Source: a virus
IMG/VR virus record: IMGVR_UViG_3300010297_000032
Coordinates: 1 to 33,405 of that record
Length of the DNA stretch: 33,405 nt
Direction: 5' to 3' (one strand)
The notes beneath the pieces were generated by a model. That model was not told where the DNA came from. It did no database searches and saw nothing but the letters and a program-made list of their open reading frames with translations. Shown one piece after another: positions 7,991 to 22,372 of this stretch; position 1 is the first letter of the stretch; each line of letters opens with the position of its first letter. A program made the translations under genes and the position numbers.

Positions 7991-9256
7991 CTAGTATCCT
8001 GCTACTGCGTCTAAAGGTTCCCACTCGTCCAAATCAATGCTTTGTGCAAAGTCTGCTACACTAACTTGGTCTATGTACGCTAGAGAGTCTAGCAAGTCAT
8101 CGTGGCTTAAAGGGCTAGGAAAATCCATCATTTGACTTATGAACTCATGGTTCCAGTCAGCCTTTCTGAACTTAATTTTACCGTGTTCAAAGCGACCTTG
8201 AAGAGCCCAGGCAATCCTATCTTGTTTCTTCTTACCACCGTGAGTAACGTCAGTAATGTTAATCCACCTACCACGTTCTCTCATAATATCTTCTAAGTAG
8301 GGCATAATAGCGTTCTTAAGCGAACCTGATTCAATCCCCACTGTAGTAGCTTCTACGTCTTCAGCTACGTCTAGTATCCTTGAGGCTGTTTCTTTAATGT
8401 CCCAACGTCCGTGGTGAATATCTTTAACTAACCACTCATCACCAATGATCTTAACTACAGATATTGCCGTTTCGTCGAGCTTGGAAGATTTAGTACCTCT
8501 CCCTTTATCAGCCTTTTCAAATCCAGCAGGGTCAACTGAAATGACATAACTGCCCTGCACATCTTCAAATACAGAGTCTTCAACGTACTTTACCCACTCT
8601 TCCTTAAATACACCACCACTGAAGCTCTGAAAGGAGGCTTCAAACTCCTGTAGGAAGGCTTGGGTGGACATGGTTTTCTTAGCTGCCTGGATTTCTTCAG
8701 GGTCTAAGAATGCATTGTCAGTACTGTTGAAGCTAAATGCTTCCCATTCTCCACTTTTGTCTTCTTCGGCGTCAATCCACAGTTTATAAAAGTGGTTCTT
8801 GCCAGCGGGTGTGCCTATGAATAAAGCTTTACCCTTAACGTCTGCCAGAGTAGGACGTAAAATAACATCCCAAGTTTCTGGTTTCATAGTAGCGTACTCA
8901 TCTAAAACTAAGAATGCGTAGCCTTGTCCACGTAAAGTATCTGGTCTATCGCTACCTTTAACGTAAATCTTTCTATCGTTTACTAGAGTAACTACCCCAG
9001 TGTTCTCATGTACACTCTTGATTACTTGAGAACCTATGTCCTTTAGAATACCCCACATTATGTCTTTTCCCATTTGAAAAGTAGGGGCAATGTAAGCCAC
9101 ATCTTTTGAAGTTGACTGGAGTGCTTCAATTAACAACATCCATCCAGCTAAATATGACTTACCAAACCGTCTCCCGCAAGCTGCTATTTTAAATCGAGCA
9201 GGAGACTTAAAAATTTGCATTTGAGCATCGTGAAGTGTAACTTTTAAATCACTCAC
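7991..9256 (-). CDS. terL: Terminase large subunit (packaging ATPase/nuclease)
   Basis: A 421-residue protein that drives ATP-powered DNA packaging and cuts the concatemer. The ATPase half shows a Walker A at ~26-34 (ACGRRFGKS), a Walker B at ~115-120 (FLVLDE) and a coupling-type motif GTPAGK at ~148-153. The nuclease half has RNase H-fold acids in 'VISVDPAG' (D242), 'VGIESG' (E309) and 'SHDDLLDSLAY' (D386/D390). The start is GTG at 9256, inside the end of the TerS gene (8-base overlap), with GAGGT upstream. It is at the short end for TerL proteins, but all motifs are present. Confidence 0.93.
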   Translation of the reverse strand: MSDLKVTLHDAQMQIFKSPARFKIAACGRRFGKSYLAGWMLLIEALQSTSKDVAYIAPTFQMGKDIMWGILKDIGSQVIKSVHENTGVVTLVNDRKIYVKGSDRPDTLRGQGYAFLVLDEYATMKPETWDVILRPTLADVKGKALFIGTPAGKNHFYKLWIDAEEDKSGEWEAFSFNSTDNAFLDPEEIQAAKKTMSTQAFLQEFEASFQSFSGGVFKEEWVKYVEDSVFEDVQGSYVISVDPAGFEKADKGRGTKSSKLDETAISVVKIIGDEWLVKDIHHGRWDIKETASRILDVAEDVEATTVGIESGSLKNAIMPYLEDIMRERGRWINITDVTHGGKKKQDRIAWALQGRFEHGKIKFRKADWNHEFISQMMDFPSPLSHDDLLDSLAYIDQVSVADFAQSIDLDEWEPLDAVAGY

Positions 9257-9629
9257 TAAGAGATACCTCAGAGTACTCAGCTTCTATAATTTCTTGTTCC
9301 TTGGCTTCTTTGGCTTCAATTACCTTAACACCTTCTACAATAATGTTAATGCCAAGGTCACCGTGGTCGTGTGTAATTTCTACTGCTTTACTTGTAGGAA
9401 TAATTCTGTCCATACACATTTTAAGACAGTGCCTATCGCCTTCAAGAGCTAATTCAATTACCTTATTGACAATCTCTGGTCCTTTAGTAGACATAAGTTC
9501 TCTTGAAAGTTTAGTATATTTGTTAAGAGAACCCTTTGGTCTACCTTCAGGGTTTAAAGGCTTCATCCCTTTAAAAAAATTAGGATTACCCGGCTTTCTT
9601 TTGACTGCTGTACTTTCTTCGTCTGACAT
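9249..9629 (-). CDS. Probable terminase small subunit (DUF5681-like)
   Basis: A 126-residue protein upstream of and overlapping TerL, with AGGAG before the ATG at 9629. Near the N-terminus it has 'LNPEGRPKGSLNKYTKLSRE', the signature of DUF5681-type proteins that often sit before TerL and act as DNA-recognition small subunits. The middle is helical ('EIVNKVIELALEGDRHCLKM') and the tail acidic (residues 106-126). The small subunit would select viral DNA and load TerL. The assignment rests on motif and gene order; a basic N-terminus and acidic C-terminus fit the role. Confidence 0.75.
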   Translation of the reverse strand: MSDEESTAVKRKPGNPNFFKGMKPLNPEGRPKGSLNKYTKLSRELMSTKGPEIVNKVIELALEGDRHCLKMCMDRIIPTSKAVEITHDHGDLGINIIVEGVKVIEAKEAKEQEIIEAEYSEVSLSE

Positions 9630-10261: not shown

Positions 10262-10397
10262 TAGCTATTTTATGCTATAGGTTCTTTAGTAGTCTTTAGT
10301 GCCGCCTAAGGATGCTTTTGTCAAGCTTTAATTTTACATTCATGTTATTTTTATTATATCTTTTGACCTCAAAAGTCCTTCTCATGTACCTATGACT

Positions 10398-10405
10398 TAC
10401 TATAG
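10398..10405 (+). promoter_or_regulatory. TACTATAG motif, copy 2
   Basis: The octamer occurs as GACTTACTATAGAAAAAC, which by eye resembles the SP6 promoter core (GACACTATAGAAG). It faces the early genes. The function is unproven. Confidence 0.4.
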
Positions 10406-10557
10406 AAAAACTCTAGCAGTCAAAGGGTCCCCCCGGGTACCACATTAGACCACAATTGGCACACTTTGCAGTAAACGCATAAGTAACACTTAAGATTGGC
10501 ATAAGTATTGCATCAGTACATAATAACCCTACAGTTTACTCAGGTATTCTAATGTGA

Positions 10558-10565
10558 TACTATAG
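10558..10565 (+). promoter_or_regulatory. TACTATAG motif, copy 3, possible rightward promoter
   Basis: The octamer lies just before the inverted iteron copy at 10574. Here TACTAT could also serve as an extended -10 (TGATACTAT) with TTTACT 17 bases upstream (10535-10540), so a host-type promoter and a phage-specific site are both possible. Confidence 0.4.
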
Positions 10566-10573
10566 TGTAATCA

Positions 10574-10586
10574 TTGTGTGCTGATG
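10574..10586 (-). repeat. Inverted copy of the iteron sequence (13 bp)
   Basis: TTGTGTGCTGATG here is the exact reverse complement of the iteron stretch at 10681-10693 (13 of 13). The two arms are separated by 94 bases containing most of the direct repeats, so a protein binding the iterons could also bridge or loop to this site. Confidence 0.7.
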
Positions 10587-10625
10587 AAAATGGCAGTGAA
10601 AGAGTGCAAGAGTGTGGTGTTTAGA

Positions 10626-10698
10626 CACATCAGCACACATCAGTCCCACATCAGTCCCACAACAGCACACATCAGTCCCACATCAGCACACAACAGCC
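10626..10698 (+). repeat. Seven-unit iteron array, CACAWCAG with 2-3 bp spacers
   Basis: Seven copies of an 8-mer start at 10626, 10636, 10647, 10658, 10668, 10679 and 10689. Five read CACATCAG and two (the fourth and seventh) CACAACAG. The linkers are CA, TCC, TCC, CA, TCC, CA and a final CC, so the period is 10 or 11 bases, one turn of the helix. All sites would therefore face the same side of DNA. This is typical of binding arrays for an origin-binding or regulatory protein. The rightward promoter begins about 90 bases downstream. Confidence 0.85.
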
Positions 10699-10789
10699 TG
10701 GATAATGTGTTGTATTATTGTCACACTTTAGTCACTCAATAGGTCAATATCATAGGTAAACCATTGAAAACATTGGATAAATTTTTTTA

Positions 10790-10817
10790 TTGCAATAACT
10801 CTTTTTATGCTTATAAT
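10790..10817 (+). promoter_or_regulatory. Rightward sigma70-type early promoter
   Basis: TTGCAA (10790-10795, 4/6 match) is followed by 16 bases and a consensus TATAAT (10812-10817). The predicted start near 10824 gives a leader of about 40 bases to the ATG at 10864, which has AGGAA at proper distance. It would drive the early genes. Confidence 0.65.
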
Positions 10818-10863
10818 CATAATCATCGAACAGCGACACACAATTTTGAATAGGAACACACTT

Positions 10864-11277
10864 ATGGACAAATTTGAGAAAGCTTGTAGAGCCAGTGAGC
10901 GATTAGGCGAAACTAATGACTGTACAGTCAAGGCCATTAGTATCGCTGGTAGAGTACCCTACAACGTCGCCTATGACGCTTGCAAGGCCGAGGGGAGAAG
11001 GTACCGGCGCGGAATGTACCCTACCCAATGGAAAAGAGCTATCCTTCGCGTAGGTTGCGCTTATATAGAAGTGGCAAAAAACCCACTACAGAGGAACGGC
11101 AGCAGGTATACAGTGAAGACAATAGGTCAGAAGTACCCACAAGGTTATTACATTGTGAAGGTTCGGGGACATGCTTTGGCAATGGTTAATGGTCAGGTTC
11201 TTGACTGGACCGAAGGTAGAAAACACCGGGTACAGGAAGTTATAAAAGTCATTGTTCCGAAAGGTAGCAGGTCCTAA
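10864..11277 (+). CDS. Papain-like cysteine protease-like early protein (137 aa)
   Basis: This is the first gene after the early promoter. The ATG at 10864 is chosen because AGGAA precedes it; an upstream ATG in the same frame (10807) lies within the promoter. The protein has 'NDCTVKAISIAG' near the N-terminus (C20), 'VRGHALAMVNGQVLDW' near the C-terminus (H103, D114) and GYYIVKV before the His. A Cys at the start of a helix, then a His between strands and an Asp after a turn, is the layout of papain-like or C39-like folds in phage and bacterial proteins. Proteolysis or transpeptidation of a host protein, or a non-catalytic role, are all possible. The fold and triad are inferred by pattern. 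Being the first early gene suggests a host-takeover function. Confidence 0.6.
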   Translation: MDKFEKACRASERLGETNDCTVKAISIAGRVPYNVAYDACKAEGRRYRRGMYPTQWKRAILRVGCAYIEVAKNPLQRNGSRYTVKTIGQKYPQGYYIVKVRGHALAMVNGQVLDWTEGRKHRVQEVIKVIVPKGSRS

Positions 11278-13480: not shown

Positions 13481-13681
13481 ATGGATAGTCAAATCGAACT
13501 ATTGAAAAATCATTTTAATGCTGGTAAATCTATCAGCAACTACGAAGCACGGGATATGTACCGTATCAATAGCCTATCCCGGCGCATTAATGACCTCGAA
13601 GAACGAGGCATGTCTATCAATCGGCAACGTAAGATTGATCAAACCGGACGCCAGTATGTCCGTTATTCTGTAGCTAACTAA
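13481..13681 (+). CDS. Helix-turn-helix protein (HTH_39-like)
   Basis: A 66-residue protein starting at 13481 after AAAGGAA. It matches the pattern of small phage winged-helix proteins (HTH_39 type): 'IELLKNHFNAGKSISNYEA', then 'YRINSLSRRINDLEERG' as the recognition part, and a wing with 'RQYVRYSVAN'. It probably binds DNA and is a good candidate for regulating the early/late switch or for reading the iterons, but the target is unknown. It lies just before SSB. Confidence 0.75.
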   Translation: MDSQIELLKNHFNAGKSISNYEARDMYRINSLSRRINDLEERGMSINRQRKIDQTGRQYVRYSVAN

Positions 13682-20528: not shown

Positions 20529-20703
20529 GCTTAAGAAGCAAGGGGTAGGTATAGCAGGAGCACAGGACTATAAGGTAGACAGCGATAACTTCATATGCCA
20601 CTACTGTCATAAAGAACATGAGTGTCCCGCTGTAGCTAAAGCAGTACCGATGAGATTTTGGTGTAGTAAGGAGTGTTTTGAGAATGAACGGACCAACGAT
20701 TAA
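20515..20703 (+). CDS. Small zinc-finger-like protein (62 aa)
   Basis: A 62-residue protein overlapping both neighbours. It has 'ICHYCHKEHECPAV' and 'FWCSKECFEN', giving C28, C31, C37, C50 and C54 with nearby histidines, a pattern that fits a zinc finger (MYM/FCS-like by eye). It overlaps the RNR start by 20 bases. The metal role is inferred; it may bind DNA, RNA or a host protein. Confidence 0.6.
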   Translation: MLIPELKKQGVGIAGAQDYKVDSDNFICHYCHKEHECPAVAKAVPMRFWCSKECFENERTND

Positions 20704-22372
20704 ACCTTGTGACGATCTTCACGCTATGAAGTATCGTCTTGCTAATGAAAGTTTTGAAGAAGCTATTGCGCGGCAAGCTGCCGCTATGGGAGATGATGAT
20801 GAACATCGTAGCACGTATAAAGAAATCACTATGGACATGCGGTTCCTTCCTGCGGGTAGAGTTCAGTCCGCAATGGGATCACCTAGGAATGTTACGGCAC
20901 TCAATTGTTTCGTCAGTGGAGTTATTGAAGACTCTATGGACTCGATCATGCAAAGAGCCAGTGAAGCTGCTGAAACGATGCGGAGAGGAGGTGGCATTGG
21001 CTACGACTTCTCTCTTATTCGGCCTCGTGGTGACCGTATTGTGTCTCTTGATAGTTCTGCTAGCGGTCCCGTTTCTTTTATGCATATCTTTGATGCCGTT
21101 TGCAGAACGATTGTATCAGCGGGACACCGTCGGGGAGCAATGATGGCAGTGCTTAGAGTGGATCATCCTGACATTGAGGAGTTCATTCGAGCGAAAAAGA
21201 ACGACAAGGACCTGACTAACTTTAACATTAGTGTTGGTGTTACAGACGAGTTTATGCAAGCCGTTGAGAGGGATCAAGAGTTTGATCTTAAGTTCAAGGG
21301 TAAAGTCTACACCACCATCAATGCCCGTATGTTGTGGGATGAAATCATGCGTAACAATTGGGATTGGGCAGAGCCGGGTGTGATCTTCATTGATAAGGTG
21401 AATAAAGATAATCCTCTCAACTACATTGAAACTATTGCTGCTACTAATCCCTGTGGTGAACAACCCTTACCACCTTACGGTGCTTGTTTGTTGGGTTCTT
21501 TTAATCTAATTAAGTACATCGAAGATGGTGTGTTTATTTTTAGTAAACTTAAGCAAGACATTCCTTACGTTGTACGTGCTATGGACAACGTCATTGACCG
21601 TACTAACTACCCTCTTAAGGAGCAGCATAAGGAACATCAGAAGAAACGTAGGATTGGTATTGGTGTAACTGGTCTTGCTAATACTCTTGCCCTACTGGGC
21701 ATCAAGTACGGTTCCTCTGAGTCAGTGAAGTTTACTAAGAAGGTAATGAAGACCCTTACGTACACCTGTTACGAAGCTAGTTCTGACCTTGCGGCAGAGA
21801 AGGGAGCGTTCCCATTTTTCAAAGCAGAAGACTACTTGAAGAGTGGTTTCGTCTCTCGTCTTCCTAAAGACTTACAAGAAAAGATCAAGAAGCAGGGTAT
21901 CCGTAACAGTCACCTCATCTCTATAGCACCCACTGGTACGATTAGTTTTACCGCTGACAACGTAAGTTCTGGTATCGAACCAGTGTTTGCTTTGGAGTAC
22001 GATAGGACTGTTCAGCTACCTGAAGGTCCTATCATTATGAAAATGCGTGACTATGCCTACGAGAAGTTTGGGATTAAAGGTGAGGTAGCTAATGACCTAT
22101 CAGTTGATGATCACCTTGCTATTCAGATGGCAGTGCAGCCTTACGTAGACAGTGCCGTTAGTAAGACCATCAACGTAGGTGATGCTGTTACCTTTGATGA
22201 GTTTAAAGATGTGTACATGAAGGGTTGGAAAGGTGGACTCAAGGGAGTTACCACGTTCCGGCTTGCCGGTAAACGGTACGGTATCTTGAATGTAGCTGAT
22301 GAACCTCAGAACAATGAAGTAGGCGCTGCTTGTTATGTTGATCCTGAGACTGGCACTAAGGAATGCAGTTAA
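20684..22372 (+). CDS. nrdJ: Class II (adenosylcobalamin-dependent) ribonucleotide reductase
   Basis: An enzyme of 562 residues that makes deoxyribonucleotides using coenzyme B12. The ATG at 20684 is ten bases after GGAG; an in-frame TTG at 20678 is the alternative. It shows 'TALNCFVSG' (C75) and 'NPCGEQPLPPYGACLLGSFN' (C257 thiyl, E259, C268 pairing with C75), the typical class II block, and 'GIGVTGLANTLALLG' and 'ISIAPTGTISF' further on. The C-terminal tail has C550 and C561, likely the shuttling thiols. No small (NrdB) subunit or glycyl-radical activase is present, which fits class II. It is compact relative to bacterial NrdJ. It is the last early gene and is followed by the terminator at 22413. 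Confidence 0.9.
   Translation: MNGPTIKPCDDLHAMKYRLANESFEEAIARQAAAMGDDDEHRSTYKEITMDMRFLPAGRVQSAMGSPRNVTALNCFVSGVIEDSMDSIMQRASEAAETMRRGGGIGYDFSLIRPRGDRIVSLDSSASGPVSFMHIFDAVCRTIVSAGHRRGAMMAVLRVDHPDIEEFIRAKKNDKDLTNFNISVGVTDEFMQAVERDQEFDLKFKGKVYTTINARMLWDEIMRNNWDWAEPGVIFIDKVNKDNPLNYIETIAATNPCGEQPLPPYGACLLGSFNLIKYIEDGVFIFSKLKQDIPYVVRAMDNVIDRTNYPLKEQHKEHQKKRRIGIGVTGLANTLALLGIKYGSSESVKFTKKVMKTLTYTCYEASSDLAAEKGAFPFFKAEDYLKSGFVSRLPKDLQEKIKKQGIRNSHLISIAPTGTISFTADNVSSGIEPVFALEYDRTVQLPEGPIIMKMRDYAYEKFGIKGEVANDLSVDDHLAIQMAVQPYVDSAVSKTINVGDAVTFDEFKDVYMKGWKGGLKGVTTFRLAGKRYGILNVADEPQNNEVGAACYVDPETGTKECS

Follow-up and report, generated by a model that had tools for sequence, protein, structure and literature searches.

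What task would be served by a set of seven evenly spaced short repeats that sits where the early and late genes of a phage diverge? We studied this question in a virus record of 33,405 bases (the whole stretch is called the window here), for which a reading of the letters and open reading frames, made without database searches (the sequence-only reading), had proposed a replication origin or master switch. Comparison with related viral contigs leads to a different answer, namely that the seven repeats most likely adjoin the site where the phage DNA is cut into genome lengths. The window itself is probably an incomplete genome, since a contig of 44,763 bases (L077) with the same junction and the same protein in the small-terminase (TerS) position is 11 kb longer.

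The array and its setting

The array occupies 10626-10696 on the plus strand and consists of seven CACAWCAG units that start at 10626, 10636, 10647, 10658, 10668, 10679 and 10689, in steps of 10, 11, 11, 10, 11 and 10 bp with spacers CA or TCC. All of these coordinates had been given correctly by the sequence-only reading, as had the exact 13-bp inverted pair in which 10574-10586 (minus strand) is the reverse complement of 10681-10693; the same element agrees with 10628-10640 at 12 of 13 positions. A single further copy of the unit occurs in the window, at 452, and the count of 8 compares with 2.65 expected and at least 8 in 0 of 100 shuffles. When chains were allowed at most one mismatch per copy and steps of 9-14 bp, the phased chain in the 120 nt after the predicted cut described below comprised 7 copies, and 20 dinucleotide shuffles gave no chain longer than 2. 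The earlier suggestion of a regular three-unit pattern stands insofar as the CACAACAG variants are units 4 and 7, but the pattern is most simply explained by block duplication, because periods of 32 and 21 outscore 11 in Tandem Repeats Finder, and the array likely grew in this way.

The genes on either side are oriented away from the array. To its left, on the minus strand, lie the genes of a DUF5681 protein in the TerS position (9249-9629; Pfam PF18932, 31.9 bits with a cut-off of 27.5), which we take from its gene position to be the small terminase, and of the terminase large subunit, TerL (7991-9256). The DUF5681 family was detected in 16 of 16 records at an E value of 0.001 and lies above the curated cut-off in 12 of them, and within the phage group the proteins in the TerS position are related to DUF5681 and have a core that is strongly conserved. 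The predicted TerS structure (pLDDT 54) is too poor to reveal a DNA-binding fold, and alignment to solved structures gave a designed protein as the sole match (E 0.19). TerL is above the Pfam cut-offs for Terminase_6N and Terminase_6C and below that for the T7 RNaseH-like domain; in NCBIfam, T7-type and PBSX-type models score about equally, both far below cut-off. To the right, on the plus strand, follow the early genes and those for a gp2.5-like SSB, a primase-helicase (DnaB_C and Toprim, with the T7 N-domain below cut-off) and PolA. Further along, at 20678-22372, the window encodes a Class II (B12-dependent) ribonucleotide reductase whose closest counterparts, at 57-59% identity, are those of the roseophages CRP-9 and CRP-738 and of oyster-associated phage contigs.

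A predicted genome end beside the array

Relatives were collected through TerS searches of viral contigs, from which the best 80 of 296, the best 80 of 306 and the best 80 of 356 matches were merged into 236 loci with 127 distinct upstream stretches. A cut score of at least 14.5 and at least 150 nt past the cut were required for the non-redundant set, in which 70 relatives and the window were reduced to 29 sequences at 70% identity; the window's cut in this set was placed by eye, and the first seed list contained the window's motif. A pattern scan with the conserved element called block B below returned 11 contigs, with the junction visible by eye in 0 of the 7 additional ones, and a 97-nt piece of the junction used as query found 6 records at an E value of 3.

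The relatives share a common frame, which runs from block A through a G/C run, variable phased repeats, block B and phased repeats to the early genes; many of them have other short repeats at the place equivalent to the array. Block A (CATGT(G/A)N4TGA with its flank; 10383-10402, plus strand) has a single match in the window and is present in 26 of the 29 non-redundant sequences, window included. A G/C run lies 21-27 nt past the predicted repeat start in 23 of the 29, with both elements present, and that of the window, GGGTCCCCCC at 10426-10435, lies at +23. Block B (10597-10618, plus strand) holds the conserved cut motif, with the predicted cut at 10614/10615. When a motif model was built from the 28 relatives with the window left out, 10614 was the top site of the whole window at 24.6 bits, 14 bits above the runner-up on either strand (10.4 bits), and this score was reached in 0 of 500 shuffles of 10403-10902. 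The occurrence of block A, the G/C run and block B in order, together with the cut motif, thus points to a predicted direct terminal repeat of 212 bp (10403-10614, plus strand), which block A adjoins at its start. The right end of this predicted repeat is well supported, by the motif and by contig ends, and its left end, placed by homology, is tentative. The inverted partner precedes the conserved cut motif, and the array succeeds it, starting 11 nt past the predicted terminal repeat.

The ends of assembled fragments provide a constraint on the position of the cut. Among relatives, 60 distinct contig or scaffold ends lie on the TerS side (within 1,150 nt), with truncated contigs counted even where they are exact prefixes of a longer contig; for 47 of these ends a position could be assigned on a sister that runs through, and for 13 it could not. 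Seven of the 47 fall on one and the same homologous base, corresponding to 10614, one other position received 2, and the rest received 1 each. When exact-prefix contigs are removed, 51 ends are left, 39 of them mapped and 7 of these on that base. Two of the seven (L174 and L175) come from near-identical phages; another, G001 (38,197 bp), carries a direct terminal repeat of 128 bp that is exact and ends on the shared base, and in a further one, G015, a scaffold gap starts exactly there. By eye, L251 (offset +6 in the scan, where its sister's cut was misplaced) ends at the identical motif base as well; L287 and L318 end 7 and 14 nt past it, and L059 ends at the G/C run. The exact cut placement in the motif model was fixed after the contig ends had been seen, and so the independent evidence is the piling-up on one base only. 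The left boundary is less sure because it depends on one contig, the length of whose repeat, 128 bp, is one base off a common assembly k-mer size; among relatives, G001 alone has an early-side start at the left end of the repeat.

A fixed, sequence-specific end is therefore seen from contig ends in relatives and from the motif alone in the window, where the phage DNA would be cut at 10614/10615. The same sequence at both ends was seen in one relative contig, as the 128-bp exact repeat, and the window spans the junction only. The window phage's own contigs (L001, L002 and L077, identical over 10403-10720) run through the cut site, which is expected, without amounting to proof, if the repeat is longer than the assembly k-mer. 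Assemblers circularise genomes with long terminal repeats, a behaviour reported for P-SSP7 (PMC3350473), and such closing into circles would explain the through-going contigs. A cohesive-end (cos) reading of the G/C run was dropped, given that contig ends gather at block B and that one contig has a terminal direct repeat.

The predicted terminal repeats also carry promoter-like elements. At 10497-10511 (plus strand), inside that of the window, lies the single window copy of TGGCA-N6-TTGC, a spacing that we take to be that of sigma54 (RpoN) -24/-12 promoters. The pattern occurs 39 times in 14 of the 29 sequences (window included) from -330 to +150 of the cut, where 0.12 copies are expected, and twice in 190 kb elsewhere; other spacings, from 2 to 11, gave 0-2 copies each. 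These sigma54-like elements (found in L042, L061, L066, L070, L215, L221, L296 and others) occur on both strands, often several together, and mostly within predicted terminal repeats. By title and abstract, none of the matches listed in a literature search concerned sigma54 elements in phage terminal repeats. Downstream of the array, 10790-10817 (plus strand) is a possible sigma70 promoter of the early genes (10 of 12 matches), and promoter-like matches near there are no commoner than in shuffles (4 vs. 3.7).

Helical phasing in relatives

The sequence-only reading had made its proposal depend on conservation of the repeat phasing in relatives, and this phasing was found. We counted exact 5-mer self-matches by lag in stretches of 120 nt in the 28 non-redundant relatives, with the window excluded. 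Matches at lag 10 numbered 105 after the cut, compared with 7 (sd 3) in shuffles, and 162 before it, compared with 6 (sd 3), so that around the cut 10-bp-spaced self-matches exceed shuffles 15- to 27-fold; lag 20 is raised too, with 71 after and 83 before. At least 4 matches at lags 9-12 were present in 16 of the 28 relatives after the cut and in 20 before it, as against 2 and 4 at the control lags 7, 8, 13 and 14. Farther out, lag 10 gave 2 matches at +300 to +420 (5 in shuffles). Two stretches intended as controls were not clean: -420 to -300 is also phased (lag 10, 52 vs. 4), and +600 to +720 is raised at lag 12 (26 vs. 4), perhaps from coding repeats. Despite them, the signal peaks around the cut. 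Strong arrays are common among the relatives and not universal, with chains of at least 3 phased copies after the cut in 8 of the 29 sequences and inside the terminal repeat in 11.

Other repeats lie farther towards TerS. In L040, L044, L047, L054 and L070, about 70-200 nt upstream of TerS, ACTTAAGT/TACTTAAG palindromes are paired 10 bp apart near the TerS leader and might explain some of the phasing plateau in that direction. Just before block A, repeats with steps of 10-11 bp (GACCTAAGTA; GACTACTTAA) were seen about 480-540 nt upstream of TerS in L066 and about 440-500 nt upstream in L064 and L065; they are a possible counterpart of the right-end array of T7.

The sequences on the two sides of the cut are related within species. 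Inverted sharing across the cut amounted to 219, compared with 189.7 when permuted (0 of 10,000), and direct sharing to 206, compared with 181.4 (11 of 10,000), in both cases driven by a subset, as 7 of 29 (inverted) and 10 of 29 (direct) reach the 95th percentile of foreign pairs. A conserved hairpin around the cut was considered and rejected: across relatives the enrichment is much the same for inverted as for direct sharing, and as single-stranded DNA the 10574-10700 stretch folds better than its shuffles (z of -2.66), with an unremarkable z of -0.99 for the shorter 10560-10660. A search of Rfam returned two matches, both far below gathering scores.

Between species, the idea that repeat sequence is unshared was not upheld. 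In a set pre-selected for less than 70% identity, the longest shared word averages 6.90 after the cut (6.78, sd 0.06, when shuffled) and 6.91 before it (6.45, sd 0.03), so that words compared like with like lie slightly above shuffles after the cut and somewhat above them before it, and pairs sharing a word of at least 10 nt number 23 of 406 after the cut and 21 of 406 before it; the window and L299, for instance, have an 11-nt word in common. Variation of the repeat sequence is thus wide but incomplete.

Known phage ends and competing explanations

The sequence-only reading held that T7-like phages usually lack such repeats, which is mistaken. In T7, the terminal repeat is 160 bp and an array of CCTAAAG starts at 175, 14 nt beyond it, in mostly 13-bp steps, with three more copies within the terminal repeat. 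We take the left-end array to be SRL and its right-end equivalent SRR, with a presumed role in concatemer processing; among the matches listed in a literature search, none addressed the function of SRL, SRR or CCTAAAG. As in T7, the short direct repeats of the window start just past the terminal repeat (11 nt, from a predicted end) and before rightward early promoters, and a G/C element lies near the left end of the repeat. The window array thus matches that of T7 in kind and location, differing in unit and B-DNA phase: the unit is CACAWCAG and the steps are 10-11 bp, with lag 10 dominant in relatives, so that units are in helix phase in the window and not in T7. The order within the G/C element also differs, with a G-run followed by a C-run in the window, a C-run followed by a G-run about 25-30 nt from the left end in T7, gh-1 and P-SSP7, and a C-run in phiKMV. 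Further, early and late genes diverge in the window, unlike in T7, and a T7-type RNA polymerase, an Autographiviridae trait that the same search found in T7 and SP6, was detected in 0 of 16 records, which may be incomplete and which include the 44.8-kb contig with the same junction.

Arrays after the terminal repeat extend to some other phages, although with spacings of 12-13 bp and other sequences in SP6 and T3. In SP6 (terminal repeat of 174), lags 12 and 24 stand out (0 of 100 shuffles), and T3 (terminal repeat of 231) has a weaker signal at lag 13 (2 of 100). In the 160 nt covered by the test, the signal is borderline in gh-1 and in phiKMV (1 of 100 for each) and weak in ICBM1 (5 of 100), and no array is seen in P-SSP7 (23 of 100); K1F shows lags 16 and 29 in a stretch picked without a known repeat end, and in ICBM2 the terminal repeat is followed by matches at lags 31, 11 and 20. 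ICBM1, which likewise lacks a T7-type RNA polymerase, and ICBM2 are marine podophages (cobaviruses, Zobellviridae) whose direct terminal repeats measure 172 and 159 bp and are C-rich at the left end (PMC6775973). A place among the cobaviruses is not established for the window phage, because its TerS had no tblastn match at an E value of 1e-5 in a collection of 50,697 phage records. Lambda has repeated terminase sites. In SPP1, multiple terminase contacts that flank the first cut have been described (PMC9611059). Unlike these cosB and pac sites (lambda, SPP1, PaP3), the one relative contig with both ends has a direct terminal repeat and not cohesive ends.

We consider it reasonably probable that the array is the form taken in the window phage by the T7-type array of short repeats flanking a terminal repeat, and that it probably docks terminase or a DNA-bending partner. 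Confidence differs between the two parts, being high for a genome-end array and evenly balanced for the docking of terminase, where binder and function are at stake. Replication would yield end-to-end concatemers, which terminase would cut at the right end of the terminal repeat (10614/10615). In T7-type phages, concatemer cutting at this end is sequence specific and the completion of the left end is incompletely understood (PMC3350473). The array and its inverted partner, with further phased copies in relatives, would flank the cut and expose a contact on the same face of the DNA at each turn of the helix. An oligomer, either the small terminase or a cooperating bending protein, could thereby dock, wrap the DNA, place the cut and help to regenerate both ends. 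Wrapping of DNA by the small terminase has been proposed and is contested (PMC9611059), and once-per-turn contacts that straddle a cut would suit a wrapping or bending oligomer. The strongly conserved core of TerS beside repeats that vary argues against simple sequence reading by TerS; instead, either TerS might respond to shape and phase, or the repeats might be read by a variable tail of TerS or by a bending partner. A bolder version, which we find doubtful, is that the packaging machinery reads helical phase over base sequence, with the 10-base periodicity selected while the unit drifts, as would be predicted if DNA were wound around a small-terminase oligomer (the "nucleosome model", which is contested), and that the RpoN-like -24/-12 elements tie the host sigma54 polymerase to the entering end.

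Three other explanations were weighed against a T7-type genome-end array. A cooperative operator of early, or divergent, transcription is suggested by the position of the array upstream of the first early gene, the promoter-like site at 10790-10817 and the sigma54-like element at 10497. We regard it as unlikely, as about 90 bp separate the end of the array from that site, unit sequences differ widely between species and phasing is equal or stronger before the cut. The HTH_39 protein at 13481-13681, put forward by the sequence-only reading as a binder, is a poor candidate and was rejected as a universal one: it was found in 6 of 15 records and is missing from G006 and G010, whose junctions nevertheless carry repeats with 10-11 bp steps. 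Quite unlikely is a selfish or slippage-driven minisatellite that has no function, to which the turnover of sequences between species, the block duplication indicated by periods 21 and 32, and terminal regions that may be slippage-prone during end repair would all be congenial; differing units nonetheless share a 10-11 bp step and a place around the cut, and plain slippage predicts neither.

The original proposal of an iteron-type replication origin, where an initiator would bind the phased repeats and open nearby AT-rich DNA, has in its favor phased direct repeats in a non-coding stretch adjoining early genes, a T-rich stretch at about 10781-10790, past the array, and a GC-skew minimum at the array. 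This minimum near 10.6 kb, which had been expected to support an origin, is real but follows gene orientation, as AT skew changes sign at the same place and the GC-skew trend reverses near 22.5 kb, at another switch of gene strand. The site is, moreover, a predicted genome end, phased repeats flank the cut on both sides in relatives, and replication genes of the primase-helicase, PolA and gp2.5-like SSB kind are present, with no Rep-type initiator recognised among ten window proteins scanned in Pfam. An origin is thus very unlikely as the main explanation, and neither it nor a master switch is supported, although either may be an extra role beside that at the genome end.

A 2022 review calls DNA recognition by the small terminase "a key question still unanswered" and describes the wrapping model as unsupported by biochemical data (PMC9611059). 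The phage group described here, in which a recurring phase, a widely varying sequence and one cut position are found across many species, constitutes a natural data set that makes TerS recognition testable, and the ten-base spacing, which persists in many related phages across wide changes in repeat sequence, is relevant to how packaging enzymes locate ends. Likely genome ends can also be marked for an uncultivated group of marine phages, and circular contigs could be opened at the right base.
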